NCBI GenBank assembly: GCA_020846695.1
Contig: JADLDM010000079.1
Coordinates: 1-32,194, forward strand
Length of the DNA stretch: 32,194 bases
Reading direction: 5' to 3'
DNA from: a bacterium
GTDB taxonomy: Bacteria > Electryoneota > RPQS01
Shown: one piece after another, positions 4,290 through 29,457 of the stretch
Numbering within the stretch: the stretch's first letter is position 1
Layout: every line of letters starts with the position of its first letter
Translations under genes and position numbers: made by a program
Notes under the pieces: model-generated
The model's input: only the letters and a program-made list of their open reading frames with translations
Databases searched by the model: none
Told to the model about the DNA's origin: nothing

Positions 4290-5540
4290 TTATTCGTAGC
4301 GAAGGGCTTCGATGGGATCCAAGCGTGAGGCTTTCATTGCGGGCCACATGCCGAAGCCAACGCCGACTCCAGTGCAGAAGATGACAGCGAGGAAGACGGC
4401 CCAGACCGGGACCGGCGCGGGGAAATTGAAGCTTTCGTTGATGAAGATTGCGGCGCCGTATCCCAGAAAGATTCCGATCGCGCCGCCAACCAGAGAGAGC
4501 AGCGTGGCCTCAATCAGGAATTGACGCAGGATGGATGAGCGTGTGCCGCCCAATGCCTTGCGCACACCGATTTCACGTGTGCGCTCGGTGACGGACACGA
4601 GCATGATATTCATGATGCCGATACCGGCGATCAATAGCGAGATACCGCAGATTCCGAAGGCTGCGATGCCGATGATGGCGGTTTGCTCGGTGAACTGCTT
4701 CTGCATAATGTCCGGAGTCCACATCGCGAAATCATTCTCTTCGCCGGGTTTCAATCCGCGAATAATGCGCATTGCCTCGTGCACTTCGCTTTGAGCTTTG
4801 CGATAGACGGTAGGATCCCATGCGGCCACAGTGAGGTTAACGGATTTTTCGCCATAAATTCGCTCGAAAGTCGAGAGCGGAATCCAGTTCTCGGTATCTT
4901 GCGATTCGCCAAACATTTCGCCTCGCTCCTCAAAGACTCCGACGACTTCGAATTTCTGTCCGTCCACCCGCACGAATTGGCCGGCGGGATCGAGACCGGC
5001 GAAGAGGGTTTTGTAGACGTCAAAACCGAGCACTATGACGCGCCGCGCAGAGGAAATATCCTGCTCCGTGATGGGGCGGCCCATCGCGATGTAGCGAGAG
5101 TTGTTGACGGCGAACTCGACGGATCCACCAGCAATACTCTGATTCTCGTTGGTTTCAAGTCCGCCTCGTGTGATGCGTCTGCCGAAGCTCCAGGACTCCA
5201 CGCCGACATATTTCACCGAGGGGCAGCGCTGTTTGATTTCGACGGCGTACTCAGCCTTGAGTTTGGGCCGCCATTTCCTGCGGTGTGGGCCGAATTGAAT
5301 ACCCCCAGACTGATCGAATCGTTGCACCTGAAAGACATTGGCGCCGAGCGAATTGAGCATCGCATCGTCAATCTTGTACTTGATTCCGCCCAACACGGTC
5401 ATCATAGAGATGATGGTGGCCACGCCGATCACTACACCGATCAGTGTCAGAAAGGCGCGCATCTTGTGAGCGCGCAACGCTTCGAGAGCCATACGAAATG
5501 ACTCCCAGAGCGAATAGAGCAGGAAATGCGGTTTGCTCAT
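4290..5540 (-). CDS. MacB/FtsX-type ABC transporter permease (second of two)
   Basis: This 416-residue protein has one N-terminal membrane helix (around residues 28-50, LTLIGVVIGVATIISMMTVL), a large periplasmic MacB_PCD domain, then three C-terminal helices with the FtsX signature (GIGIMNIMLVSVTERTREIGVRKALGG) and the closing WPAMKASRLDPIEALRYE. The ATG at 5540 follows the stop of the first permease by 2 nt, so translation is coupled. A longer open frame up to 5657 lies inside the upstream gene and is not used. MacB-type permeases work by mechanotransmission, using cytoplasmic ATP hydrolysis to move the periplasmic adaptor. Here two different permeases probably make a heterodimer. Confidence 0.93.
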   Translation of the reverse strand: MSKPHFLLYSLWESFRMALEALRAHKMRAFLTLIGVVIGVATIISMMTVLGGIKYKIDDAMLNSLGANVFQVQRFDQSGGIQFGPHRRKWRPKLKAEYAVEIKQRCPSVKYVGVESWSFGRRITRGGLETNENQSIAGGSVEFAVNNSRYIAMGRPITEQDISSARRVIVLGFDVYKTLFAGLDPAGQFVRVDGQKFEVVGVFEERGEMFGESQDTENWIPLSTFERIYGEKSVNLTVAAWDPTVYRKAQSEVHEAMRIIRGLKPGEENDFAMWTPDIMQKQFTEQTAIIGIAAFGICGISLLIAGIGIMNIMLVSVTERTREIGVRKALGGTRSSILRQFLIEATLLSLVGGAIGIFLGYGAAIFINESFNFPAPVPVWAVFLAVIFCTGVGVGFGMWPAMKASRLDPIEALRYE

Positions 5541-5542
5541 GA

Positions 5543-6763
5543 TCAGTCCGAGCGCAGGGCTTCGATGGGTGAAAGTCGCGCGGCTTTCATTGCGGGATAT
5601 AGACCGAAAATGATGCCAACGACGCCGGAGAAGATGACGCCGACGCCGACAATCCACATCGGCATGTAGGTCGGGAGGAAGTTGTTGATGGCCTTGGACA
5701 ATCCGGCCGCCATGGCCACGCCAAAAATTCCGCCGATGGCGCAGATCACGGCGGACTCAACCAGAAATTGCCAGGAGATATTCCAGTTTTTTGCGCCGAG
5801 TGCTTTGCGCAATCCGATTTCGGCAGTGCGCTCAGTGACGGAAACCAACATGATGTTCATGATGCCGATCCCGCCGACCAGAAGCGAGATGAAGCCGATG
5901 ATGATGCCGCCGGCGTAAACGGCGGCGGTCATTTGATCAAACTGCTCAAGAATTGCCGACTGCGTGTTCAAACCAAAATCATTGGCCTGACGCGGGTCGA
6001 GTTTGCGCAGGCGGCGCATGATGCCTTCGACTTCCCATTTCATGTCGTCGAGATGTCCGCCTTCGACCGATTTGGCGACAATGGTCAAATCTGCCCAGCG
6101 GCCGCTGAAGCGCTTCTGAAAGGCGCCGTAGGGAACGACGGCGAAGTTGTCCCAGCTTTGTCCAAAAACTTTTCCGAAAGGTGTGCTCATGCCGATGACT
6201 TCAAAATCCCAGCCGTTGAGCTTGATGGTCTTGCCGATGGGTGACTCTTCGGGGAAGAGCGAGCGAGCGACATCCTGACCGATCACGGCGACGTGAGCAT
6301 TACGGCTGACTTCCTGTTCCGTGAAGATGCGGCCTTCGGCGAGTTCTTTCGGATTGGTGATGAAGAATTCTTCGGACACGCCCTGCACATTGACACGCGA
6401 GAGTGACGAGCCGCGATAGGTCACGGTCATTTCGCGGTCATAGAAGGGCGAGATGGCCTCGACGTATTCGGATTCCTCGCGCAGCGCTTCGATGTAGTCC
6501 ACACGCATATCTCGGCGTTTGATCATGTCGCGCCAATTGTTGCTCATCCAGTCCCAGCGCGAAACGAAGACGGTTTCAGCGCCGAGAAAATCGAGCTGAC
6601 TGCGCAGCGCCTTGTTCAGACCGAGCACAATCACGACCATCATGATGACTGTCATCACGCCGATCACGATTCCGAGCGCCGTCAGGCCCGCGCGCAGTTT
6701 GTTTGCGCGCAAAGCGCCGAAAGCGATGCGGAGTCCGTTGATAACGTCAATGAAGAAACGCAT
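5543..6763 (-). CDS. MacB/FtsX-type ABC transporter permease (first of two)
   Basis: From the ATG at 6763 the protein has 406 residues. It has the same layout as its neighbour: N-terminal helix (LTALGIVIGVMTVIMMVVIVLGL), periplasmic core, and three C-terminal helices containing GGIGIMNIMLVSVTERTAEIG and YPAMKAARLSPIEALRSD. The two permeases are clearly paralogous but diverged. The frame is open upstream to a TTG at 6844, but that would translate a G-run tract into Gly/Arg-rich sequence without family support, so I use the ATG that begins MRFFIDVINGLRIAFGALRANKLR. No Shine-Dalgarno is visible before it. Instead a possible G-quadruplex lies about 25 nt upstream (6789-6810), which may affect translation relative to the ATPase gene. 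Confidence 0.92.
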   Translation of the reverse strand: MRFFIDVINGLRIAFGALRANKLRAGLTALGIVIGVMTVIMMVVIVLGLNKALRSQLDFLGAETVFVSRWDWMSNNWRDMIKRRDMRVDYIEALREESEYVEAISPFYDREMTVTYRGSSLSRVNVQGVSEEFFITNPKELAEGRIFTEQEVSRNAHVAVIGQDVARSLFPEESPIGKTIKLNGWDFEVIGMSTPFGKVFGQSWDNFAVVPYGAFQKRFSGRWADLTIVAKSVEGGHLDDMKWEVEGIMRRLRKLDPRQANDFGLNTQSAILEQFDQMTAAVYAGGIIIGFISLLVGGIGIMNIMLVSVTERTAEIGLRKALGAKNWNISWQFLVESAVICAIGGIFGVAMAAGLSKAINNFLPTYMPMWIVGVGVIFSGVVGIIFGLYPAMKAARLSPIEALRSD

Positions 6764-6788
6764 GGATAAGTTAGAAGTCGGAAGCGAA

Positions 6789-6810
6789 CCCCATCCCCCG
6801 CCCCTTCCCC
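6789..6810 (-). promoter_or_regulatory. Potential G-quadruplex in the ATPase-permease spacer
   Basis: On the minus (coding) strand four G runs of 4, 4, 5 and 4 are separated by 2, 1 and 2 nt. This fits the canonical quadruplex rule with very short loops and lies in the 83 nt untranslated spacer of the message, about 25 nt before the permease start codon. Folding in RNA would be expected to be very stable. The effect on expression is inferred. It could also be the remnant of a dispersed G-rich intergenic repeat. Confidence 0.5.
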
Positions 6811-6846
6811 GTAAACAGAGATGGAGAGCGGAGAAGAAAGTCAAAT

Positions 6847-7554
6847 CTATGCAGCGCGGTGAATAACTTCGTCGGATTCAATCAGACCGTCTCGGAGGCG
6901 GACGATGCGGTGAGCGTGACGCGCGATGTCTTCTTCGTGCGTGACGAGAATTATCGTGTTGCCCTTTTCATAGATTGTTTCGAGCAAGAGCATGATTTCA
7001 TTTCCGGTCTTCGAGTCGAGATTGCCGGTCGGCTCGTCGGCGAGAATGATCGCGGGATTGGTGACCAGCGCGCGGGCAATCGCGACGCGCTGACGTTGAC
7101 CTCCGGACATTTCGTTGGGCTTGTGCTTCATTCTATCGCCAAGCCCGACGGCCTCCAGCGCCTCCCTTGCGCGTCTGCGCCGCTCCGAGGGGGATTCACC
7201 TGCATAGACGAGAGGGAGTTCCACGTTTTGCAGCGCCGACGCGCGAGGGAGGAGATTGAAGGTCTGAAATACGAAGCCGATACGGCGATTGCGAATCTCC
7301 GCAAGCTGTTTGTCGGAAAGTCCGGCTACGCGCTCACCTGCAAGAAAATATTCGCCGGAAGTCGCGGTGTCCAGACAACCGATCAGATTCATCAACGTGG
7401 ACTTGCCGGAACCGGATGGTCCCATGATGGCCACGTAATCATTTTCAAGTATGTTGACGTTCACTCCGGCGAGCGCCTCTACCTTGACTGCGCCCAGGTC
7501 GTAGATCTTGCGGAGTTCACGAATCTCAATCATCGGGCGGCGTTCGCCGTTCAT
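6847..7554 (-). CDS. MacB-type ABC transporter ATP-binding protein (LolD/MacB family)
   Basis: This 235-residue ATPase carries a complete motif set: Walker [10 protein letters not shown] (45-53), Q-loop in FQTFNLL, signature MSGGQ (149-153), Walker B IILADEP (169-175), D-loop and H-loop His206 (VTHEED). The spacing and the [20 protein letters not shown] segment are those of the LolD/MacB/FtsE branch that pairs with FtsX-like permeases. The ATG at 7554 has AAGGA 8 nt upstream, so I choose it over the upstream frame extension to 7626 and over the internal ATG at 7533. It ends with TAG. It powers the two downstream permeases and lies directly after the adaptor gene. Confidence 0.95.
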
Positions 7555-7649
7555 ATTCTTGTTCCTTTGGTTTCGACCGGATTGCGCGCGAACTGAATCG
7601 CACCCTCCTTGTGCCCCCCCCCGCAAGCAGGGATAATTGGAGAAGCTAC

Positions 7650-8954
7650 TTATCCGCGTTCGTTGCCGCCTTTGCCGTCTTTGCCGTTCTTTTTCTTCTC
7701 TTCGATCTTGACCTTGTCGCCGTTCTTCAGCTCACGTGCGAGCACGCGATAGGGCCCGGCGATGATGGAGTCGCCATCTGCCAAGCCGGATGTGATTTCC
7801 ATGTAGCGATCGGCGGCGATGCCGGTTGTAATGATCTTCCACATCGCTTCACCGTTGGCGAAGACAAAGACGCCGGTTTCAAGTTCGTCTTTCTGATTCT
7901 GCACCTTCGAGGTATCGAGCGTGCCGGCCCGAACTTGCTCTTGAATCTGGCGAGAGGATTGCTCTTCGACTTCGCGGGAGACTGAGACGATTTCGCCTTC
8001 GCCCTTCTTGCGCACGGCCACGGCCTGAATAGGAACGGAAAGGGCGCCAGTGCGATAGTCGGTTTCGACATCCACCGTAGCGGACATGCCGGGACGGATA
8101 CCGGGGATGCTGTCAATCAAAAAGATTTTAACTTCAAAATTAGTCGCGGAAACGTCCGCGCCGAAATCGCCGGAGGCCGTGATGTTGCTGGCGGATTGAG
8201 CGATTTCGGTGACCACGCCCTTGAAGGTGGTATCGGGGAAGGCGTCAATTTCGACGCGCGCGGTATCTCCAAGCGCGACATTGATAACGTCGTTTTCATC
8301 CACGCTGGCGAGCACCTGCATCTTGCTCAGATCGGCGACGATGAGAATAACGTCCTCTTGAAACTGACTTCCAAGAGTGAGTTCGCCGACTTCTTTGTTC
8401 AATACGGAGATGGTTCCCGACATGGGAGCGGAGAGGCGGGTCTTGCCGAGATTTTCGCGCGACTGACGCTCGTTGGCTTCGGCGCGTTCGAGTTCAGCTT
8501 CGGCAAGTTTGTATGCAGCTTCGGCTCCGTCTTTGTCTGCCTGCGAAGCCATGCCGCGCGCAACAAGTTCGGAGATTCTGCGATAATCCGCGTCAGATTT
8601 CTGCTTGTTGGCTTGCGCGGATTTGAGAGCGGACTTGGAAGCATCGAGAGCCGAGATGTAAACCTCGGGATCGAGCTCTACGAGGAAATCGCCCTGTTGA
8701 ACCACGTCTCCTTCCTTGACCGTCAGTTTGACAATGCGGCCCGGAATTTCAGCAGAGACCTTGACCTGAGTGACGGGATCAATCTTGCCTTCGGCGGCAA
8801 CAGTGGCAACGAGGCGGCGCAAGCTCGCGGCCTCGACTGTGACTTCGGTAACTTTTTTCTTTTCGGCGTTGTTCTTCTGGATTGCTCCAATGACCACGCC
8901 TGCGACGACGAGCACGCCGCCGATCCAGAGAATACGTCTTGTCTTCTTCGTCAT
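7650..8954 (-). CDS. HlyD/MacA-family periplasmic adaptor of an efflux pump
   Basis: This 434-residue protein has one N-terminal membrane helix (8-26), the first half of a lipoyl-like domain (66-95, with [26 protein letters not shown]), a helical hairpin rich in Ala/Lys/Glu (100-171), the second lipoyl half ([25 protein letters not shown], 174-198), then beta-barrel and membrane-proximal domains. The tail is very basic ([19 protein letters not shown]). This is the MacA/RND adaptor architecture. It would bridge the MacB-like permeases to a TolC-type outer-membrane channel, which is not in the window. The start is the ATG at 8954. A GTG at 8969 in the same frame has no better ribosome site. It is first in the operon. 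A 95 bp spacer with a run of nine C (7614-7622) separates it from the ATPase gene. Confidence 0.93.
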
Positions 8955-8996
8955 GATTTTCTGACCCACTAAGTTGACCCCAAGGGGCGCACTTCA

Positions 8997-9023: not shown

Positions 9024-9147
9024 ACCCCGTTCAATAGGAATGGAGCAGGAACCCGGGGAAATGTTGCAGACCTGCTTCCTCGTCTGGCCACAAACTTGCA
9101 CAGAGGGGTCGCGATGAGCTATTTTGCTTCACGATGGAGATAATGAT

Positions 9148-11691
9148 ATGACGCCTTCCAAACCCGGCCTGGGCACCGAATTAGTAGAGCCGCTACGCAA
9201 TTTCCTCGAGTCCTTCACGCAAGAGCTTACAGAACAGCAGTTTATTCCGGCGTTCAGGGATGAGCTTGGAAAGCTGGCCCAGGCATTCGAAAATATCCAA
9301 CAGGCCGGTGACACCCTGCAACAGGTTGCGCGCGGTGTTGACAGGTTGCGCGACGTCTTCGCCCCTGCCGGAACGCGAATGCTCGACGGAGTCAAGGAGT
9401 TGGAGGCGCAGATGCGCTCCAATTCGGACCTGTTGCGCACACAAGCTAACGAAGTTCTGACGCAACTTCAAACTTCGCATTCAGAATTGGAGACCGCGCT
9501 CAGGCGCGAGTCAGGTCTGTTGGGCGATCATTCTTCGGCGGGACGTGAAGCCGTGATGCGGATATCGGGAGAGGTTGAAGAGCGGCTTTCGTTGTTCTCG
9601 CAGAAGCTCGATCAGCTTTGTGCCCGAGCGGAGCAGGAACTCGGGCAGTTCTCGGCGCTTGCAGCCAGATCGAGCGAGCCGGCAGCGCCGGTTGCAACCG
9701 CGGCGCCTCAGCAGGTTGCGACGGCGCAGATCACTCTGGAATCGAGCGAAGAACTCAAGTCGTATTTGTCGCGCGCGGAGAGCAGTGTTGCGGATGAATT
9801 ATCCCGGCATTCGAGCGAGATCCGCGAGCTGTTAAACTCGAATACGAAGGAGAGTCAGGAGCGGCTGACGCGACTGGACAAGACGATTGATGAAGCATTG
9901 CGCGCCGTGGCTCCGCGCGTCCAGAGTGAATTGGACAGCGCGCTGACCAGATTGCGCGATCAGATGGATGCGATTGTGCGAGCGGAGCGCGAGGCGCTGC
10001 CTGCTCCGGTCGAGCAGCATCAAGAGCAGGCCCCCGCGACGGTGGTCATCACGTCTTTGACTTCGACGGAAAACCGGCTGTTGCGCGAGTTCGATGAATT
10101 GCGTAAATCGGGAACGTCTGAGCTTACGGAGATACAAAAGGGGCTTGCCAACCTGGCTCTCGATTTGGCCGAGATTACAGAGAAGCAGACGGAGCGAGTC
10201 GAGAAAGAGCAGCAGACGATTAAGGAATCGCTGATCAAAGTGGATCGGATGCTGAAGGAGCGGGCCGCAGAATTCGGGATTGTGTCGAAGCATCTCGGCG
10301 AAGGCAAGCAGCAGCTTGAAGCGCTGAAGGCGCAGCAGGCGCACTCGGTGACGCAGCTTACGCAGCTCGTGTCGGGCTCGCTTGAAAAGATGGGCGTTCA
10401 AGCACAGCTTGCGCAGCACGTGAAGGACGCTGTGGACTCCGGGTTCAGCACGCTGAAGACGAACGTCGCACGTATTGAAGAGTATCTTCCGAAGACGGTT
10501 GAGCAGGCGGTTCAGGAAAGCCGCGCCGTAAGGGAGCGAATAGAGGCGGCGCTAAATGATTTGCGCGGGAAACTGGACGGGCGGTTTGACAGTTCGCTCC
10601 AGAAGAGTGAAGAGTCGCTCAAGGAGCTTGCGACATCGTGGGCGGAGCAGTATCGCCAGCTCAAGGGCGACATTGAGAAGAAACTTGATGGGGCGGGAGA
10701 TATCCTGAAGTCGGATTTGGAGAAGCTGGCGGGCTTCGTTCGCGAGCAGACCAAGCAGCAGGAATTGCGATCCGCTGATCTTTCCGACGAACTCATACGC
10801 GCGCACACGATTCTCGACGAGAGAATGTCGAAATTTGAGTCATCGCGCGAAGAGAACGAGCAGTTTTCGCGGGCGATTGAGCAGCACGTAAAGGTGGTGG
10901 CCTCGGAAGTTACGACCTTGCGCTCGAAATCGCAGGAGCAGCTTGAAGTTCTGAAAGAGGCGATTCGCGCGAACTACGACGACAACTCCGCACGACTGAA
11001 GGAAGTGATTGACGGAGGATTCGATCGCTTCCTCGAACAGATCCGCACCGTGCCGCAGGCGCTGGAACGCTATTCGAAATTCACGGAGGCGATGCACCAG
11101 AGCAGTCAGCTTGCGCTGCAAGGGATTTCCGGCGACACGGCAAACCTGCTTACATTGGCCAAAGCAGAGTTTGAAGAGATTCGCGCGAATACCGAGGCGC
11201 AGAAGAAGCTGTTTCCGCTGATTAACAAGAGTCTGGAGAAGCACGGCGGCATGTTGGAAGGCGTGCGGCGTGCGCAGGCTGAGCAGGATAAGGCGCTGGA
11301 TAAGCAGAGCAAGTATCAACATGAGACGCGTGATGAGTTGACGCGATTCCTTATTGATCTGAAGGGCGAGATCCGAAGGGTCGAAGGCGCGGAGCAAACG
11401 CGGCTTACGGAACTCGATCAGATGCTGCACTCGATTTACGGTGAACTTGAGAAGCTGCAACGCAATGATCTCCCCGCCTTCCGGCGCGAACTGATCAACT
11501 TGATTCAATCAAAATTTGATTTCATCGAGAGCACGAACGCGGATCGGCAGAATGCGTTTCGCGCGGAATTGACGACGCGGCTGGAAGAAGACCGGAAGAA
11601 CACGAAGAAGATGCTGACGATGATCGCGGGGCTGGTCGGCCTTGGAGTGCTGGTTCAGTTTGCGCTCCACTATCGGCTTTTCTCCTTCTAA
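9148..11691 (+). CDS. Long coiled-coil protein with a single C-terminal membrane helix, unknown function
   Basis: From the ATG at 9148 the protein has 847 residues. GGAG lies 8 nt upstream, so this start beats the TTG at 9124. Apart from a short Ala/Pro/Gln-rich linker near residues 175-195 and another around 290-310, it is almost wholly charged, heptad-like helix rich in Glu, Gln, Lys, Arg and Leu (for example EKQTERVEKEQQTIKESLIK). A membrane helix lies at the extreme C-terminus (about 824-843, MLTMIAGLVGLGVLVQFALH), ending with only a few residues. There is no signal peptide, so this is a tail-anchored topology with a long cytoplasmic rod. I recognise no family. It resembles methyl-accepting or RmuC/SMC-like rods only in composition. 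The next gene starts 18 nt downstream and should be a partner. A terminator follows that gene, making this a two-gene unit. Confidence 0.85.
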   Translation: MTPSKPGLGTELVEPLRNFLESFTQELTEQQFIPAFRDELGKLAQAFENIQQAGDTLQQVARGVDRLRDVFAPAGTRMLDGVKELEAQMRSNSDLLRTQANEVLTQLQTSHSELETALRRESGLLGDHSSAGREAVMRISGEVEERLSLFSQKLDQLCARAEQELGQFSALAARSSEPAAPVATAAPQQVATAQITLESSEELKSYLSRAESSVADELSRHSSEIRELLNSNTKESQERLTRLDKTIDEALRAVAPRVQSELDSALTRLRDQMDAIVRAEREALPAPVEQHQEQAPATVVITSLTSTENRLLREFDELRKSGTSELTEIQKGLANLALDLAEITEKQTERVEKEQQTIKESLIKVDRMLKERAAEFGIVSKHLGEGKQQLEALKAQQAHSVTQLTQLVSGSLEKMGVQAQLAQHVKDAVDSGFSTLKTNVARIEEYLPKTVEQAVQESRAVRERIEAALNDLRGKLDGRFDSSLQKSEESLKELATSWAEQYRQLKGDIEKKLDGAGDILKSDLEKLAGFVREQTKQQELRSADLSDELIRAHTILDERMSKFESSREENEQFSRAIEQHVKVVASEVTTLRSKSQEQLEVLKEAIRANYDDNSARLKEVIDGGFDRFLEQIRTVPQALERYSKFTEAMHQSSQLALQGISGDTANLLTLAKAEFEEIRANTEAQKKLFPLINKSLEKHGGMLEGVRRAQAEQDKALDKQSKYQHETRDELTRFLIDLKGEIRRVEGAEQTRLTELDQMLHSIYGELEKLQRNDLPAFRRELINLIQSKFDFIESTNADRQNAFRAELTTRLEEDRKNTKKMLTMIAGLVGLGVLVQFALHYRLFSF

Positions 11692-11709
11692 CCGACAGGC
11701 AGCCAAGCA

Positions 11710-13266
11710 ATGTCCAACCGATTCTCAGCTTCATCCACAGCGGCGCTGGCGTTTCTCAATCGTCTGGTGGAGAGTGCGATGCGCGACGCCGACCGGCTTG
11801 CGGCTCCGCAGCTTCTTGAACTCCAGACCCTTTGCCGGGAAGCGGGACTGCATCTCTCGCTGCTGGACGTCTTCAGTGCGGTGTGCGATAGAGAGCCTGC
11901 CGTGTTCATTTGCGGAGGAGACGAGCAGACGGCGTCCGACGTGGCGCACTGTTTCGGATTGCGCACACAGTTGCCGGCCGCAGTGGAGGCGCCGCTCTTG
12001 TGGTGGGTGAAGCCGGGTGAGACTAACGCATCGGCGATTTCTGTTGGGAACAACTACAGGGAACTTTCGGAGAACGCGCTTCATGCACTGCTTGGTTCGG
12101 ATTTGCCGATGGATCGTGTGACGGTCTTAGCGAAGCAGGTGGAATCCGAATCGTCGTGGCGCGCAGCGTGGATTTCCGATCCGGAACTCCTGAGCAGATT
12201 CATGGGTTGGCCTGCGCTCTTGGAAGCTCTCATGGCGGCACAGGTTGTGGTGGTGATTGGCGATGATCTGCCGCAAAATTTCGCGCCGTGGCTTTCGAGA
12301 CCCGGACTTGTGAGCTTTCAACTCGCGACGACGGAAATTTGCCGCGATGACGTGCGCGGGCCGCTACTTTCGCAGCTTTGCGCACTTCGCGAGCAGGGAG
12401 CCGCCGAGCACCAGAGTGTGTTGGATGCGACGTGGCAGTTTCTTTCGCCGAGATTGCTGGATTCCCTCGATGCACTTCGTCAGCAATATACGCTTGAAAT
12501 CGACCGGCAGAACGGCAAGGTGCAGACAACGAGGCAGATGCTTGGAGAGTATCGCCGGAACTGGATCAGCGGAGTTCGCAACCTCATCAGCGATTACATG
12601 ACGAAGAAGGTCACGGGTCAGGCATTTGCGACGCTGCTTGAGCCGAAGCAGGCCGGACCGCAGGCGGAGAATTTCTTGCAGGCGATGGCCATGCAGACCT
12701 TGAACAAGCGCTTGACGGAGATGATGACCGATCGCATGGCGGAGTTTGTGCAGGGACTCAGCGCTTTGGCGACGCGTGTTGATCTTCGCTCTATTCCGCT
12801 GAAGGACCTTGACACGGTCTGGAATCCGCAGCCGCTCGCTTCCCAGATTGAAAACGAATTGAGCGCAAAGAGCTTTTTCACAAAAGGCGGCGGCGAACGC
12901 GCGGGATTGGTCGGGTCGCTGATGGGAAAGTCGGATGAGATTGTTCAGCAACGGAAGAACCAGCTCGCGCGCGCCTCGAAGCTGGTGCAGCAGACTTTGG
13001 AAAGCGACTTTCAGGAATGGTGCGACAACTTTCTGCACACGGTTGAGCAACGCGTGCGCGTGCAGATTGCCGCTGCGCAGATCAACCAGGGACTTCCCGA
13101 TCATGAGGCGCTGAGGCGCGGACTGGAGGGAATTGATCGCCTGACGACCCTGCTTGAAGGACGGCGCGAAGGAAGCCGAACGGCTCCCGGACAGCACACG
13201 TCGGCCTGGCTTGGTGCGCTTTCCAAGCGGCGTTGGTTTCGCCGCTACACACCGGCGGCGGCCTGA
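11710..13266 (+). CDS. Unknown protein, possibly a degenerate dynamin-like GTPase
   Basis: A 518-residue soluble protein with no signal peptide or membrane helix. The first 220 residues look like an alpha/beta domain: REPAVFICGGDEQTAS (61-75) sits where a dynamin-type P-loop (G-x4-GKS/T) would be expected but lacks the Lys, and AQVVVVIGDDLPQNF (177-191) resembles the later strand-plus-loop carrying the N/TKxD guanine motif, again without its key residues. Residues 235-500 are mostly helical (SLDALRQQYTLEIDRQNGKVQTTRQMLGEYRRNW), like the stalk of bacterial dynamins. The similarity is by eye and may be wrong. The gene lies 18 nt after the coiled-coil membrane protein and ends just before a strong terminator, so the pair probably acts together, perhaps in membrane or envelope organisation. 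Confidence 0.8.
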   Translation: MSNRFSASSTAALAFLNRLVESAMRDADRLAAPQLLELQTLCREAGLHLSLLDVFSAVCDREPAVFICGGDEQTASDVAHCFGLRTQLPAAVEAPLLWWVKPGETNASAISVGNNYRELSENALHALLGSDLPMDRVTVLAKQVESESSWRAAWISDPELLSRFMGWPALLEALMAAQVVVVIGDDLPQNFAPWLSRPGLVSFQLATTEICRDDVRGPLLSQLCALREQGAAEHQSVLDATWQFLSPRLLDSLDALRQQYTLEIDRQNGKVQTTRQMLGEYRRNWISGVRNLISDYMTKKVTGQAFATLLEPKQAGPQAENFLQAMAMQTLNKRLTEMMTDRMAEFVQGLSALATRVDLRSIPLKDLDTVWNPQPLASQIENELSAKSFFTKGGGERAGLVGSLMGKSDEIVQQRKNQLARASKLVQQTLESDFQEWCDNFLHTVEQRVRVQIAAAQINQGLPDHEALRRGLEGIDRLTTLLEGRREGSRTAPGQHTSAWLGALSKRRWFRRYTPAAA

Positions 13267-13283: not shown

Positions 13284-13323
13284 AAGAGCGCCCGCATTTT
13301 GTGTGGGCGCTCTTGCTTTTTCC
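13284..13323 (+). terminator. Rho-independent terminator after the coiled-coil gene pair
   Basis: AAGAGCGCCC (13284-13293) and GGGCGCTCTT (13305-13314) form a perfect 10 bp stem, followed by GC and a run of five T. It lies 17 bp after the stop at 13266 and separates this unit from the Omp85 operon. The arms are identical to those at 28287-28310. Confidence 0.85.
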
Positions 13324-13340
13324 TCCGATTTTCGCATAAT
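13313..13340 (+). promoter_or_regulatory. Possible promoter of the Omp85/TamB operon
   Basis: TTGCTT (13313-13318) and CATAAT (13335-13340) are 16 bp apart and overlap the tail of the terminator. Transcription would begin close to the first ATG (13348), giving an almost leaderless message. This is a moderate match only. Confidence 0.3.
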
Positions 13341-13347
13341 TTCAAGA

Positions 13348-15249
13348 ATGGTGAAAAAGACGATGCAATACCCCGTCCGCAGCTTTGGAGCACGCGCTCC
13401 TTTGCGGCGGTTTGCTCTCTTTGCACTCTTGCTGTTCCTTAGCTCATCCGCGCGCGCGCAGTTCACGCTTGAGGAGTACGAATCGTGGCAGCGCTACACT
13501 GGCTGGCCGATTCGAGTGATCGAGTTTCCGGGCATTCATGCCTTTGCGCGCGCGGACCTTCTAACCGTCATGGCGACCGAGAAGCCGACGTGGCTCAGGC
13601 GATACGTACCCATCGGCAGCCGCACGACGTTTTATGCGGACGACTTTGCGACGGACCTGATTCGCGTGCGGAACTTCTATGCGCGAGAGGGATTTCCGCG
13701 AGCGGAAGTGACTGGGCTTGTGATTCCCGAAGAGAAGCAGCTTAGACTGTTGGTGCGCATCAGTGAGGGTGAGCCCCTGCTGTTGCGCAGTTGGCGAATG
13801 CAGCTTGCCGAAGGAAGTCAAGCGCGCGTGGATTCCGCACGCTGGTCGGCAAAGCTGCCAATCAAGATCGGCAAGCGGATTTCAGGAACGACTCTGAAGA
13901 TGTCCGCTGATACACTTCGCTACGAATTGCAGCTCAACGGACACGCGAAGGCGCGGGTGCAAGTGGACACTCTGGAGAGTTCCACGCCGTTTGAAGCCGA
14001 TGTTGTCTTCAAGCTCAATCCGGGGCCATATTGCCGTATCGGGCGGACAGCGATTGCGGGTTTGAAGCAGGTGCGCGAACCGACGGCGCGGCGCGAATTG
14101 ACCTATCATGAGCATGATCCCTATTCGCCGCTTGTTATTGAAGAGACACGCAAGAGATTGCTGAGATTGGAGACCTTCCGACTGGTGCGTGTTGAACTGG
14201 ATTCGGTGAGCCGCGCGGATACGATTGACGTGCAGTACAGCACGGAGGAAGGCAACCGCTATCTGATTCGCACGGGCGGCGGCTACGACACGGAAGACGG
14301 CGCGCGCGCGGAAGCGAAGTTGACGGATTTGAATTTCTTCGGGCGGGCGCGTCGTTTTACAACGGAGGTGAAAGCCTCGCGCCTGTTCGGAGCGAGCGAT
14401 GAAGTGAACCGAAGCATCGGATTCAATCTCTTCTGGCCGCACACGCCGTGGAACGCTACGGACATCACCCTTGCTCCGGCTTGGAAGTATGAATTTAACG
14501 GCGGCGCGATTACGGAAACACGCTCTTCCACCACGATTCTTTCTGCGGCGCCATTGCGGAAGACGGCGATTTCGGTTTCCAATGAGTTCGGTAGTCAGAC
14601 GGTGGAACTCGCGGGACAGGATACGATTCCTTCCGAGACGAGCACAATTTCGATTGAGTCTTTCTCGATTGGTTGGGACACGCGCGACAATCCGCTGGTG
14701 CCGCGTCGCGGACATTTCCTAAGTTTCTCCGCGTCGGAATCGGGCGCGTTTTGGAATATTGACAATCGTTGGTGGCGTGCGGTGTTGGGTGGGCGCGTGC
14801 TGGCGCCGGCGAATCGCTTCACAACGTTTGCTTTTCGCGGCGAAGCGGGAGCAATGGGACCGCTTCATCAATCCGAAGAGACGCCGATCAATGAGCGCTT
14901 TCGTTTGGGCGGAGCTTCGGACATTCGCGGCTGGGGAAATGATATGGTGGGACCGCGAACTACGGATGGCGCTGCGGTGCTCGGCGGAGATGTTTCGATG
15001 TATGCATCTGCGGAAGTGCGTCGCCAGATTTGGGGACCCGTAACGTTTGTGCTGTTTGCCGATGCGGGAAATGCGTGGAACGATTCCAAAGCCGTACGCT
15101 TGGACGACGTCTATTATGCAGGCGGAGCAGGTTTGCAGTTTCTGACGCCGTTCGGGCCGGTGCGCACGGACTTTGGCTATCAATTGACCGAGAATCCCTA
15201 CGGAGAAAGGCCCTGGGCAATTCATCTTGTCCTGGGCTCGACTTTCTGA
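13348..15249 (+). CDS. Omp85-family outer-membrane protein, TamA-like (three POTRA plus barrel)
   Basis: From the ATG at 13348 the protein has 633 residues. An ATG at 13363 would give a tidier signal peptide (RRFALFALLLFLSSSARAQ). After the signal come three POTRA-like units: one from about WPIRVIEFPGIHAF to ISEGEP, a second ending FKLNPGP, and a third YCRIGRTAIAGLKQV to STEEGNRY. Then follows a 16-strand barrel with the Omp85 loop-6 signature RLGGASDIRGW (about 519-529) and a C-terminal strand ending in Phe (LVLGSTF), the signal read by the Bam machine. Size and POTRA number fit TamA rather than BamA (five POTRA). It stands first in an operon directly before tamB, with one base between stop and start. 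It should insert or support outer-membrane proteins or lipid transfer together with TamB. Confidence 0.9.
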   Translation: MVKKTMQYPVRSFGARAPLRRFALFALLLFLSSSARAQFTLEEYESWQRYTGWPIRVIEFPGIHAFARADLLTVMATEKPTWLRRYVPIGSRTTFYADDFATDLIRVRNFYAREGFPRAEVTGLVIPEEKQLRLLVRISEGEPLLLRSWRMQLAEGSQARVDSARWSAKLPIKIGKRISGTTLKMSADTLRYELQLNGHAKARVQVDTLESSTPFEADVVFKLNPGPYCRIGRTAIAGLKQVREPTARRELTYHEHDPYSPLVIEETRKRLLRLETFRLVRVELDSVSRADTIDVQYSTEEGNRYLIRTGGGYDTEDGARAEAKLTDLNFFGRARRFTTEVKASRLFGASDEVNRSIGFNLFWPHTPWNATDITLAPAWKYEFNGGAITETRSSTTILSAAPLRKTAISVSNEFGSQTVELAGQDTIPSETSTISIESFSIGWDTRDNPLVPRRGHFLSFSASESGAFWNIDNRWWRAVLGGRVLAPANRFTTFAFRGEAGAMGPLHQSEETPINERFRLGGASDIRGWGNDMVGPRTTDGAAVLGGDVSMYASAEVRRQIWGPVTFVLFADAGNAWNDSKAVRLDDVYYAGGAGLQFLTPFGPVRTDFGYQLTENPYGERPWAIHLVLGSTF

Positions 15250-18200: not shown

Positions 18201-18934
18201 CGCATCACTTGAGTATTTCGATTCCGGGCAACTTCTGGATTCGCGGCGCGGGAGTGAATATTGAATTGAGCGGAGATATGCTGCTTGATAAGGCGCATCA
18301 TCAGCCGCCGAGCGCCGATGGAAAGATTGCCATTCGGCAGGGCACTGTGAAGTTTTACGGTAAAGAACTGCGTGTGCAGGAGAACTCGGCGCTCACGTTT
18401 GTCGGACCGCCGACTATGCCGACGATGGACATCTCGGCAGCCTACAAAGGCGCGGATAAGAGCGGGTCATTTGAAGTGCTGGCGACGGTGACCGGAACTC
18501 CGGACGTGACACAGCTCACGTTCAGCGGAACACGAAGCGACGGGACCGCTCTCAGTGAAGCGGAGGCAATTACCTATCTGCTCGGTCTTCAGGATACGGA
18601 GAATTTGAATGCCGAAGAGCAGGCGATTTCCGCAGCGAGTGGGCAGATTTCCGATATTGTCGGACGCGCGTCGAAACTCGACGTGTTTGAATTTCGTCCC
18701 GGTGAGGGCGGATTAAGCGATTTGTCCTCGGGTTCGCTTGAGGTGGGAACGTATATTACGGATCGTCTCTTTGTGCGCGTGCTTCAGCCCATTGAAACGA
18801 TTCAGGCGGGGCAAACGGTTTCGATTGACTACAGGTTACTGGATTGGCTTAAACTTTCGGCGGAACAGATGTCTCAGACCAGCGGTGATCAGGTGAGTTC
18901 CTTCGTGGTGTATCTGCAATTTGAATGGCGATGA
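15251..18934 (+). CDS. tamB: TamB-like translocation/assembly protein (DUF490 C-terminal domain)
   Basis: A 1227-residue protein starting one base after the TamA stop (TGAGATG). It has an N-terminal membrane anchor (about 7-29, LIWPFALIAAILCALFFALQL), then a long beta-rich body typical of AsmA/TamB bridge proteins that form a hydrophobic groove across the periplasm. The C-terminal TamB domain (roughly 830-1227) includes DGYYGDNRYGIGYKW, GDITLEEGFYRI, GKIAIRQGTVKFYGKELRVQENSALTF, SGTRSDGTALSEAEAITYLLG and DRLFVRVLQPI. It ends in a barrel-like strand (VVYLQFEWR), the region that contacts TamA. Proposed roles in the family are outer-membrane protein assembly and phospholipid transport. Length is close to E. 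coli TamB (about 1259 residues). Its stop overlaps the next start (ATGA). Confidence 0.93.
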   Translation: MLRVLSRILIWPFALIAAILCALFFALQLEPVLNFAAQRALKIVNESLRGSIQVERARFSFTGQVYVSDLVIRDERDEAALSAKTVAVWLAPWDLVLGRVHVLKADITGVRVHYVQDSTGSNLQRSFASRAPAKKDTTQSETWVRVDRTSISFDSIAVTLDSLTEYSLENVKLELSALLTDSTIGYEIELESKPLIELTGDGTVWIQPEFRHSGHFAVKADSSLVLKYVPALPNPGNLMLEGNVRATASSIHADCFVSADQVGSGAFDVMVSNMSTMPEVRGEMFFDTLSLVPWIGDSLAHRFSGHATFQKTRSADWIHDWSGELVLDSSMLNHIGIDAKLSVNYHGDSARADGEISTEFGSARLDASAHGLESEQLQVEGSGLVERIELHKFAPQIPDSLSPLTGRVEFAWKQGDTKATEARVRAELSTLTFGKHKLDSLSLNAELEGSHVQLHPTVARLGSSAFTVSAQGSLEDSIEVEIDADVPKLAELFELAAGFTLETDSLDGALTLTSRATILLQDSALADLRAHGSIKLSDVTYGDMKLKTAEISFAEFSLEDSTITVALDADSLSLSGETITNIRVDTEGNWLRSHFGARMSARGDTFRIASSGDYDLTRARYRISMDSLSLEIFGSHWVNDYPFELSFDSLTYEVDGLTMRSGLGVLRAAGLVSRTGEQDLALEFSGFRTGQLSTFTGAEVPDGKLNLRLQFAGPASAIVGNLDASLDSVTYNQSPISDEFSLSAEIGNNGVLSASGNSIWFGDTSLVFSASVPATLSLENGISVVDSLPLSGRLLLLEQSIGRISPWLEQNTHLDGVCSADLNLKGTLREPDWNGEIHLRDGYYGDNRYGIGYKWIMFDAELLRDSLLIRQFRATSKGTLTGSGYAVLGVPWPERLDLTLNFDKFNAVDSRIQKAKLDGALHIVGPFDSLDASGDITLEEGFYRITQSATKDIETVNLDSVLAVMRGDTIEQGFNADALYNSTAHHLSISIPGNFWIRGAGVNIELSGDMLLDKAHHQPPSADGKIAIRQGTVKFYGKELRVQENSALTFVGPPTMPTMDISAAYKGADKSGSFEVLATVTGTPDVTQLTFSGTRSDGTALSEAEAITYLLGLQDTENLNAEEQAISAASGQISDIVGRASKLDVFEFRPGEGGLSDLSSGSLEVGTYITDRLFVRVLQPIETIQAGQTVSIDYRLLDWLKLSAEQMSQTSGDQVSSFVVYLQFEWR

Positions 18935-20214
18935 GACGAAACTTACTCGTCCTGCTCATTCTCCTTGTGTGCGTTGCTCCCGGTTTTGCGCAGGACGCTG
19001 CGATTCAAGTTAGCGCTATCGAGATCATCGGGAATCAGACGACCAAGGAGTGGGTGATTCTGCGTGAGTTGCAGTTTGACGCGGAGGATCGGGTTACGCG
19101 CGAGGAGCTTGACCGTGCGCGATTACGGTTGTTGAGCCTCGGGATTTTCAATAACGTGCGGATTGACACGGACGACGAAGGCGTGGTCACGATTCAGGTT
19201 TCGGAGCAGTTTCGTTACATTCCCGTGTTCGATGTGAGTCCGGTTGAAGGCACCATCAACGATGCGCTCACGAAGCCGGGTGATGCGATGAAGATTCTGG
19301 TCGTGACGTTCGGCGCGGCGGACATCAATCATCGCGGAACATCGGCGCTTGCTGCGGCAACTGCGCAAGTCGGAGCGCGCACGGGGTTTTCGCTTGACTA
19401 CAGTTCGCGCTGGCTCTCGCCTTCGCTTCCGATTGTGTTGCGCTTCGGTGGACGAGCGGTACGCGTATCAAACAGACACGCTTCGGTTCTCGGATATGAA
19501 TTGAAGTCGAAGAGCGAAGTTGCTTACGTCGAAGTTGCGACACGACGCGGCGCGCCGTCGCGAATCGGATTGCAGTTTCTCTATCAGGGATTGCATGAAT
19601 CCGACGAATACCCTGCGCAGGGCAGGGATTACTCCTCGCTCTTCATCAATCCTTTCGTCGCATTGGATCGGAGAAACCTCGAATGGTATCCGACCGAGGG
19701 AATTTACGCGCGGACGGATATTGAATATGTTTTGGATTCACCGGACTTTGTACGCTCGCGGGGAATCGCGGCGGCTTATGTTCCATTTGCAAAGGGAGGG
19801 CGCGGCCCTTCGATAGCCGCGCGTCTCTATGGAGGAATATCCGACTCCAAGACTCCTGCTTGGGCGCATTACTACTTCGGTTTTGCGGACGAGGTCAGGG
19901 GTTATGCTTCAGAGCAGGCGGAGGCTGCGAACTTTCTTTCGGGCGAAATGGAACTTCGCTTTCCTATCACGCGTGAAATCACATACGATGTTCCACTGGT
20001 CGGAAGATACGGGCAGGATATTCCGTTTTGGCTTGGCGGTGCGCTCTTTGTTGAGCGCGCGCAATTATCGCTGGATGGAGCGCGCGAGGATTTGCTTGGT
20101 TATGGCGGCGCAGTTCACCTGAGATTTCCGTATGTGCAGGTCTTCGAGTTTTCCTACGCGTGGAATCAGAATGGTGAGGGACAGTTCATTATGGCAACCG
20201 GAGTGCGCTTCTGA
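18931..20214 (+). CDS. Second, small Omp85-type outer-membrane barrel (one POTRA)
   Basis: A 427-residue protein from the ATG at 18931, which overlaps the TamB stop as ATGA. Another ATG lies 6 nt upstream (18925). The signal peptide is MRRNLLVLLILLVCVAPGFAQ. A single POTRA follows (IQVSAIEIIGNQTTKEWVILRELQF to VTIQVSEQF, about residues 24-95), with the classic sequence of a POTRA adjacent to the barrel. The barrel then carries the loop-6 motif GFADEVRGYA (about 316-325) and ends MATGVRF with terminal Phe. At this size it is about 200 residues shorter than the TamA-like protein upstream. Having two Omp85 proteins around one TamB suggests alternative or joint barrel partners. It could also be a BamA-like accessory or patatin-less surface transporter. 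The stop overlaps pyrD (TGATG). Confidence 0.88.
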   Translation: MRRNLLVLLILLVCVAPGFAQDAAIQVSAIEIIGNQTTKEWVILRELQFDAEDRVTREELDRARLRLLSLGIFNNVRIDTDDEGVVTIQVSEQFRYIPVFDVSPVEGTINDALTKPGDAMKILVVTFGAADINHRGTSALAAATAQVGARTGFSLDYSSRWLSPSLPIVLRFGGRAVRVSNRHASVLGYELKSKSEVAYVEVATRRGAPSRIGLQFLYQGLHESDEYPAQGRDYSSLFINPFVALDRRNLEWYPTEGIYARTDIEYVLDSPDFVRSRGIAAAYVPFAKGGRGPSIAARLYGGISDSKTPAWAHYYFGFADEVRGYASEQAEAANFLSGEMELRFPITREITYDVPLVGRYGQDIPFWLGGALFVERAQLSLDGAREDLLGYGGAVHLRFPYVQVFEFSYAWNQNGEGQFIMATGVRF

Positions 20215-28338: not shown

Positions 28339-29457
28339 TTATTTGAGCAGCAGAAGCTTGCGGGTGATGGTCACATCGGGAGAAGTCATGCGCGCGATGT
28401 AATGACCCGAAGGACATGCCATGCAATTCCAACTTACCGTGTGATATCCTGCCTCAAGTCTTCCTGAAATCAGAACAGCGGCACGGCGACCCAATACATC
28501 GTAAGTTTCGATTGAAACTTCGGATGCGCGCGGGACCCCAAAGCGAATCGTTGTCGAGGGATTGAAAGGATTCGGATAGTTCTGATCCATGAAGAACACG
28601 GTCGGAATTTGCGCATCCCGGTCATTGATTGCAGTCGCGCCCGCAGTCAGGGGAATGCCGATATTCCCCCCGACGCTGCTTGAGATAATCAGCGTGTCGA
28701 GATAGACTCCGCTCGTGACGGCATGGAAACGAAGGAGGAGAGAAGTCGTATCATACGCGCCGAGAGTCAACTCGGGGTCCTGTGCGATCATGAAGTGATC
28801 ACTCGTAAGAACAAAATTCGTCATATCGAGTCCCGTGTTGCCCGAGCTGATCAATGTCAACTCCGCATCGGCTGAATCACCAACGGCGATAATTCCCATG
28901 TCCACGGATTGTGGAGTTGCAGTAAGTTCTGTCCAGACACCGTGAGCGGCGATCGCAATCGAAATTTCTTCCGCGTTACAGTGAACCGTTAGAAGCGCCG
29001 AATAGCTCAAGGTATCGGGAACTTGTAATTGATAGACAACCGTATGACTTTGCGAGGGAGCGACGGTGAAAGACTGCGTGAGTGATGGGAGAAGTGGATT
29101 GTCCGAATGTAGAGAATCCACGATTAGGTCGGAGTTTCCCGTGTTCGTGATCGTGAAGCTATCGGTCGCAATTGTGTTGATCCAAATGTCTCCGTAATTC
29201 AGCGTGTCCCGATTCACGGAAACTTCCGGCGCGGGGATTGTGAAGACGGGAGTCAGAACTCCACTCGTGAAGATGAAGTTCGCGCTCGTATGGGTGTCAG
29301 CAATCGAAAGTTGTCCGATGGCGCTACGCAGAATGTAGTTCTGTGTGCTGTCATGAGAAGCAAGCGCGCTGAATGTCTCGCTCGACATGACGAAGTTCGG
29401 GCTTTGCGGCTGCGCGAAGAGCACAAGCGGGAGGAGAATTGCGAGAATGTATTTCAT
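28339..29457 (-). CDS. Secreted protein with Ig-like domains and a C-terminal T9SS/FlgD-like sorting domain
   Basis: 372 residues. Signal peptide MKYILAILLPLVLFAQ, then an N-terminal segment (MSSETFSALASHDSTQNYILRSAIGQL) common in such secreted proteins, two Ig-like/ASH-type modules (VSVNRDTLNYGDIWINTIATDSFTITNTGNSDL and LTATPQSVDMGIIAVGDSADAELTLISSGNTGL), and the C-terminal domain from about 290: FMDQNYPNPFNPSTTIRFGVP, VSIETYDVLGRR, LEAGYHTVSWN, SGHYIARM, TRKLLLLK. This is the pattern of type IX secretion type A sorting domains and is very frequent in FCB and related candidate phyla. GGAGGAGAG lies directly before the ATG and 8 nt after the stop of the fibre gene, so both are one operon. Confidence 0.93.
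   Translation of the reverse strand: MKYILAILLPLVLFAQPQSPNFVMSSETFSALASHDSTQNYILRSAIGQLSIADTHTSANFIFTSGVLTPVFTIPAPEVSVNRDTLNYGDIWINTIATDSFTITNTGNSDLIVDSLHSDNPLLPSLTQSFTVAPSQSHTVVYQLQVPDTLSYSALLTVHCNAEEISIAIAAHGVWTELTATPQSVDMGIIAVGDSADAELTLISSGNTGLDMTNFVLTSDHFMIAQDPELTLGAYDTTSLLLRFHAVTSGVYLDTLIISSSVGGNIGIPLTAGATAINDRDAQIPTVFFMDQNYPNPFNPSTTIRFGVPRASEVSIETYDVLGRRAAVLISGRLEAGYHTVSWNCMACPSGHYIARMTSPDVTITRKLLLLK

Follow-up and report, generated by a model that had tools for sequence, protein, structure and literature searches.

What is the function of two adjacent genes whose products cannot be assigned to a described family by sequence? Such a pair lies in a stretch of 32,194 nucleotides (contig JADLDM010000079.1 of assembly GCA_020846695.1, positions 1 to 32,194 of the forward strand), hereafter the window, which corresponds to contig C80 of genome G000 from an uncultured KSB1 bacterium. 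All genomes compared here are metagenome-assembled genomes. We labelled the first gene and its protein ROD and the second PSG. Neither protein had a meaningful match in Pfam, NCBIfam or PDB sequences, and a search of PADLOC and PHROG names likewise returned nothing meaningful. We tentatively propose that the pair belongs, as a module of two proteins, to the type IVa pilus (T4aP) system of one KSB1 order, a reading that we regard as quite possible. Their role would most likely be that of a cytoplasmic scaffold for the pilus machine at the inner membrane. The unit is laid out as follows.

9148..11691, + strand: ROD, a coiled-coil protein of 847 residues, helical and with a tail anchor in the inner membrane
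11710..13266, + strand: PSG, a 518-residue soluble protein, predicted to be a dynamin-like pseudo-GTPase
13284..13314, + strand: intrinsic terminator ending the ROD-PSG unit, a 14-pair hairpin followed by a T-run

The length of ROD is counted from an ATG; the same frame opened at a TTG start gives 855 residues. A sequence-only reading of this DNA had described two genes 18 nt apart closed by a strong terminator, and both the spacing and the hairpin with its T-run were found as described. A terminator also occurs at this junction in L012 and L013, the closest relatives. In four genomes (L015-L018), the PSG start and the ROD stop overlap by 4 nt, which suggests translational coupling. Upstream of ROD, a divergent HlyD-family gene ends at 8969.

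ROD and PSG are a conserved pair in one KSB1 order

ROD was detected in all 13 genomes of its order, which comprise two families and 10 genera, and was not found in the 26 other genomes of the phylum that were searched. Of the 13 genomes, 11 yielded PSG as well, each time adjoining ROD in the same orientation, so chance does not account for the adjacency. In the remaining two (G003 and G004), the contig stops within ROD. A PSG profile search returned no match in the rest of the phylum nor in about 350 further genomes. The adjacency that the sequence-only reading had left to be checked in related genomes is therefore conserved (11/11).

A membrane anchor next to a dynamin-like protein could also denote an anti-phage or stress membrane module, as some bacterial dynamin-like proteins (DLPs) are reported to have phage-resistance roles (PMC8844932). 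We consider this very improbable for ROD and PSG. In the genomes read, the pair occupies a core chromosomal site beside TamAB, which in family f1 also adjoins pyrD, and the ROD-PSG locus is present in every genome of the order. Moreover, PSG has no PADLOC match, and the ZorA matches of ROD fall on its coiled coil only.

The ROD promoter shares a sigma54 site and an upstream element with pilin genes

A new indication of function comes from the region preceding ROD, which contains two features.

9059..9068, + strand: activator-like element AAATGTTGCA, 16 nt before the sigma54 site
9085..9100, + strand: sigma54 (-24/-12) promoter TGGCCACAAACTTGCA, 63 nt upstream of the ROD start

A sigma54-type site of the form TGG[CT]N7TTGC[AG], with the GG-N10-GC spacing, was present at -46 to -68 in 10/10 ROD promoters (shuffle P 0.0004-0.005 per locus, values that are not fully independent because the genomes are related). 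The rpoN gene is present in the same genome and in most of the phylum. Scanning the region for sigma70 promoters found none, and a near-match further upstream (TTGACC-N15-TACAAT) was dropped as it is not conserved. Ahead of the sigma54 site, eight of the ten ROD promoters carry a GTTGCA element, as ATGTTGCA in seven and as AAGTTGCA in one, with gaps between element and site of 16, 45, 84-85 or 97 nt. The background for ATGTTGCA is 0.3% per 113 nt.

Searching the 13 genomes with the composite pattern ATGTTGCA-N26..86-TGGYN7TTGC gave 13 matches, as compared with one for the reversed control. Six of these lie at ROD and three at one orthologous GspG/PilA-like pilin, while the remaining four have other spacings and look like chance. 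The pilin sites (in G000, G006 and G010) have the same 84-85 nt spacing as the ROD promoters of G004, G005, G007 and G009. In addition, G006 and G007 contain a pilB-pilT-pilC-(pilS)-pilR-pilA cluster, in which PilB and PilT exceed NCBIfam cut-offs and a sigma54 site precedes pilA. Upstream of this pilA site, a GTTGC element occurs at 16 and 95 nt in G006 and at 98 nt in G007; the gaps of 16 and 98 nt match those of 16 and 97 nt at ROD. Across the loci compared, the GTTGCA element accompanies 15 of the 19 sigma54 sites at ROD and pilus genes versus 3 of 32 other site matches (Fisher P 7e-7). The pilin homologues score as prepilins but under the GspG equivalog cut-off, and so PilA and GspG are not separable by the models used; linkage to the pilB/pilT/pilC cluster supports their T4aP identity.

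In this cluster, pilA is flanked by two activator genes, one pilR-like and the other a second sigma54 activator. PilR is known to bind with sigma54 at the pilA promoter (PMC6058289), and the arrangement resembles the PilS-PilR/sigma54 regulon of Pseudomonas and Geobacter in having pilA beside a pilR-like gene and a sigma54 site with an upstream element. It differs from that regulon in the GTTGCA element and the ROD-PSG target, neither of which is described in the literature examined, and in that the activator is putative. Judging from these shared promoter sequences, ROD-PSG is probably a member of a sigma54/PilR-type type IV pilus regulon. This link provides a testable function for the pair, which sequence similarity could not supply.

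Some observations weigh against a pilus role. The two most distant genomes (L019 and L020) keep the sigma54 site at ROD and lack the GTTGCA element, and the sigma54-like sites at pilB lack the element as well. The ROD-PSG unit is also located outside the pilus gene cluster, and sigma54 regulons are often of mixed function. In this order, the flgF-flgG operons of three genomes (L120, L127 and L130) have a well-matched sigma54 promoter, which suggests that sigma54 controls flagellar genes in these uncultured KSB1 bacteria. ROD-PSG might thus be a general polar or cell-organizing scaffold for both pili and flagella, in a role like that of HubP/FimV or FrzS, with sigma54 marking surface appendages generally; large coiled-coil proteins and pseudo-signalling domains are indeed T4aP polarity factors in Myxococcus (FrzS, PMC11580455). 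However, the GTTGCA element is absent from the flgF-flgG promoters of all three genomes, and flagellar co-regulation of ROD-PSG was rejected because these operons have the sigma54 site and not the element. Neither Pfam nor NCBIfam shows a sequence relation to the FimV, HubP or FrzS families. We therefore regard the broader scaffold as fairly unlikely.

Two further features of the pilus loci were recorded. The clusters of G006 (contig C6, L150) and G007 (contig C16, L151) run in the order pilB-x-pilT-pilC-(pilS)-pilR-pilA-second sigma54 activator-very large protein-minor pilins, with sigma54-like sites ahead of pilB, pilA and the second activator. The GspG/PilA-like pilin with the ATGTTGCA-84/85-sigma54 promoter is a stand-alone gene (L137/L147, L138/L148 and L136/L149), and the gene next to it encodes a secreted protein that ends in a T9SS-type sorting tail, the tail being confirmed in G006.

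ROD is a tail-anchored coiled-coil protein

Two segments of ROD stand out in the alignment of its homologues.

9148..9597, + strand: ROD residues 1-150, the best-conserved segment, ELxEPLxxFLExxxxELTxxxFxPAxRxE ... DRLREVFAPAGTRLLEGVKDLE
11611..11667, + strand: ROD residues 822-840, the sole C-terminal membrane anchor, conserved in 10/10

The idea of an 847-residue rod held to the membrane by its last helix was supported. The protein is helical, its hydrophobic residues recur with a heptad-like period and it contains little proline or glycine; a single C-terminal anchor is found in all ten homologues. Each of the ten aligned proteins has one transmembrane segment at most about 30 residues from the C-terminus and none elsewhere, the pattern by which we define a tail-anchored protein. 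Seven residues follow the hydrophobic segment 822-840 in the window, and the corresponding tails of the ten homologues are 2-10 residues long. Matches of ROD to apolipoprotein, SpiroCoCo and ZorA were rejected as they reflect coiled-coil composition.

HubP and FimV are polar hubs, large single-pass inner-membrane proteins whose long cytoplasmic parts organize pili and flagella. ROD is likewise large and single-pass with a long cytoplasmic part. Unlike these hubs, it carries its anchor at the C-terminus, lacks a periplasmic domain and matched no family.

PSG has a predicted dynamin-like fold that has lost its GTP-binding motifs

To characterize PSG, we obtained an AlphaFold (AF2) model from a two-sequence alignment, which was of moderate confidence (mean pLDDT 60.6, pTM 0.44). 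In this model, a parallel-strand core (strands 64-69, 151-155, 177-183 and 201-205, with helices between) is followed by long helices at 230-309, 328-356 and 409-459, in agreement with the dynamin-stalk-like helical part that had been suspected. The one short hydrophobic stretch of PSG (165-183) coincides with a core strand and lacks conservation as an anchor. When this moderate-confidence model was compared with the PDB by Foldseek, the top nine matches all belonged to the dynamin superfamily, including MxA (E = 8e-5), the Campylobacter DLP pair (2.4e-4), LeoA (5.3e-4), BDLP (6.5e-3), Dnm1, MxB and dynamin. In an independent comparison with a viral structure library, named giant-virus dynamins ranked second to fourth. 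A protein without a GTPase core was thus not what structure prediction and fold search returned. The segments that correspond to nucleotide-binding motifs and to a loop of the stalk are listed below.

11914..11937, + strand: G1 (P-loop) position, PSG residues 69-76, GGDEQTAS; Gly and Lys replaced in 10/10 homologues
12157..12183, + strand: G3 (DxxG) position, PSG residues 150-158, WRAAWISDP; WxPxP-type instead, register inferred from the model strands
12310..12345, + strand: strand and G4 (NKxD) position, PSG residues 201-212; degenerate, with SKDDL retained in the L036/L015 homologue
12877..12927, + strand: conserved Gly/basic loop between stalk helices, PSG residues 390-406; dynamin paddle position by analogy

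At the G1 position, the PSG homologues read GGDxxLAx, with the Lys position occupied by Ala in nine of ten and by Val in one, and none of the ten contains a P-loop motif anywhere. None has NKxD at the G4 place or a conserved DxxG at the G3 place. Both the P-loop without its Lys and the degenerate guanine-motif segment noted from the single sequence are therefore general among the homologues. In dynamins, the membrane paddle is located between the stalk helices, as is the Gly/basic loop of PSG.

Sequence comparison did not add to this picture. No profile signal connected PSG with dynamins in Pfam, NCBIfam or PDB profiles, an hhalign comparison with four DLPs was not significant (P=0.49), and hhalign comparisons with MnmE, HflX, Der and EngB sets were dismissed as not significant. 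The term dynamin-like therefore depends on the moderate-confidence model and the motif register. A second model was built as a control only, with the homologue L036 (candidate division KSB1 bacterium, record RPQS01000034.1) placed first. It reached a pLDDT of 39 and gave one weak Drp1 match followed mostly by generic coiled coils, which implies that the first fold result depends on the head being modelled. The control and the lack of a profile signal both count against a dynamin-derived PSG, and they would agree with an order-specific alpha/beta and helical-bundle protein whose low-confidence model looks like dynamins because its Rossmann-like core and long helices are convergent. The same holds for residues 86-147, which are unmodelled, and for the lack of a sixth strand and G5 region ahead of the stalk. 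Nevertheless, we find convergence unlikely, given that nine of nine top PDB matches and ranks two to four in the viral library are dynamins and that the G1, G3 and G4 segments are degenerate yet match in position, with SKDDL surviving in one homologue. Taken together, PSG probably has a dynamin-like fold without nucleotide motifs, with support coming from the modelled fold and the motif pattern and not from sequence homology. Of the dead dynamin-like GTPase that had been put forward, the fold and the motif loss were supported, whereas a relationship to dynamins or other GTPases was not significant at the level of sequence profiles.

Dynamin_N matches elsewhere in the genomes of the order were also considered. 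Those read were MnmE-, HflX-, Der- or EngB-like, along with one ABC protein, and were set aside; the order thus yielded no true dynamin among the matches read, nor any DLP_helical match.

A possible scaffold for the type IV pilus at the inner membrane

A working mechanism for the pilus module may be outlined from these features. Under conditions that call for pili, the pilins and ROD-PSG would be made together through a PilR-type activator and sigma54, the pair from its one promoter, and since ROD-PSG would be switched on with the pilins, the module would be built when pili are built. ROD would insert into the inner membrane by its tail anchor, with the rest of the protein projecting as a long coiled coil into the cytoplasm. 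PSG, predicted to consist of N-terminal helices, a small Rossmann-like head and long stalk helices, retains no GTP-binding motif and would thus act as a nucleotide-independent assembly or adaptor part. It may assemble on ROD, on the membrane or on both through its stalk and the Gly/basic loop 390-406, and the resulting assembly could position or gate motor ATPases or pilus bases at the inner membrane.

The proposed module has parallels among described systems. Paired genes are the rule for bacterial DLPs (PMC6104087, PMC4159319), and Campylobacter Cj-DLP1/2, LeoABC and BDLP1 resemble ROD-PSG in being side-by-side gene pairs whose head-stalk fold the PSG model matches. Unlike these pairs, only PSG is predicted to be dynamin-like here, it lacks G1, G3 and G4 and has no sequence-profile match, and its partner is a tail-anchored coiled-coil rod and not a GTPase. 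In Myxococcus, FrzS combines a dead receiver domain (pseudo-receiver) with a long coiled coil and helps to recruit pilus regulators (PMC11580455). ROD-PSG, a coiled-coil rod and a dead GTPase-like protein in a probable pilus regulon, is reminiscent of FrzS, SgmX, MglA and SopA as a parallel in function and not as a relative. It differs from them in consisting of two genes, in its membrane anchor and in having no detected sequence relation, and its pilus role is the one we infer from the promoter.

If correct, these results would give the type IV pili of an uncultured phylum a further module, of two proteins and as yet undescribed, and would mean that a dynamin fold can be retained as a scaffold after lineage-wide loss of GTP binding, of which our literature search returned no bacterial example. 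In its strongest form, which we consider rather unlikely, the pilus scaffold would consist of a tail-anchored rod of about 100 nm (fully extended, as calculated from its length) and a dynamin-derived protein devoid of GTP binding, the first dynamin-fold pseudo-GTPase to be built into a bacterial surface appendage as a structural component.

The neighboring TamA-TamB operon has its own promoter-like sequence

TamA-TamB-Omp85 genes follow ROD-PSG in the window and in all nine related loci that were read over the junction. The sequence-only reading had drawn on this outer-membrane operon to suggest an envelope-organizing role. In a version of that idea, ROD-PSG would organize the inner-membrane side of TamA-TamB-Omp85 and couple lipid or outer-membrane-protein delivery to a cytoplasmic scaffold. 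The constancy of this neighbor would speak for such a role, as the MacAB-like operon on the upstream side is not conserved in the second family; we also count as support that TamA-TamB-type genes in other families of the phylum occur without ROD-PSG. However, in most loci the TamA operon is preceded by a conserved promoter-like sequence that belongs to it (TTGA...TAATT type), and the terminator after PSG divides the two units in the window and the two closest relatives, which argues against co-transcription of ROD-PSG with tamA-tamB. The ROD promoter is, furthermore, of a different class, common to pilin genes. From these sequence features, TamA-TamB in this order seems to be transcribed separately, from a promoter of its own. 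Because of this promoter and the pilus-type promoter of ROD, the outer-membrane inference is weaker than the pilus link, and we consider the envelope role improbable. At the PSG-tamA junction itself (13303-13350) and at the homologous junctions of L012-L018, the promoter-like sequence is of the CCTTGATTTTCTGCT...CGTAATT type, weaker in the window.

Other genes in the window

The divergent MacB-MacB-ABC-HlyD operon (4290-8969) adjoins ROD in family f1 and not in f2 (L019 and L020). Towards the end of the window, a gene at 28339-29457 encodes a protein with a T9SS type A sorting tail and a choice-of-anchor domain, and is followed at 29466-32183 by a 905-residue open reading frame with zero NCBIfam matches. 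After TamB, at 18925-20214, lies a 429-residue Omp85 protein that each of the nine related loci read also has. In NCBIfam it matches BamA best, though over one POTRA-like stretch only (residues 27-84), and it is perhaps a second, short Omp85.

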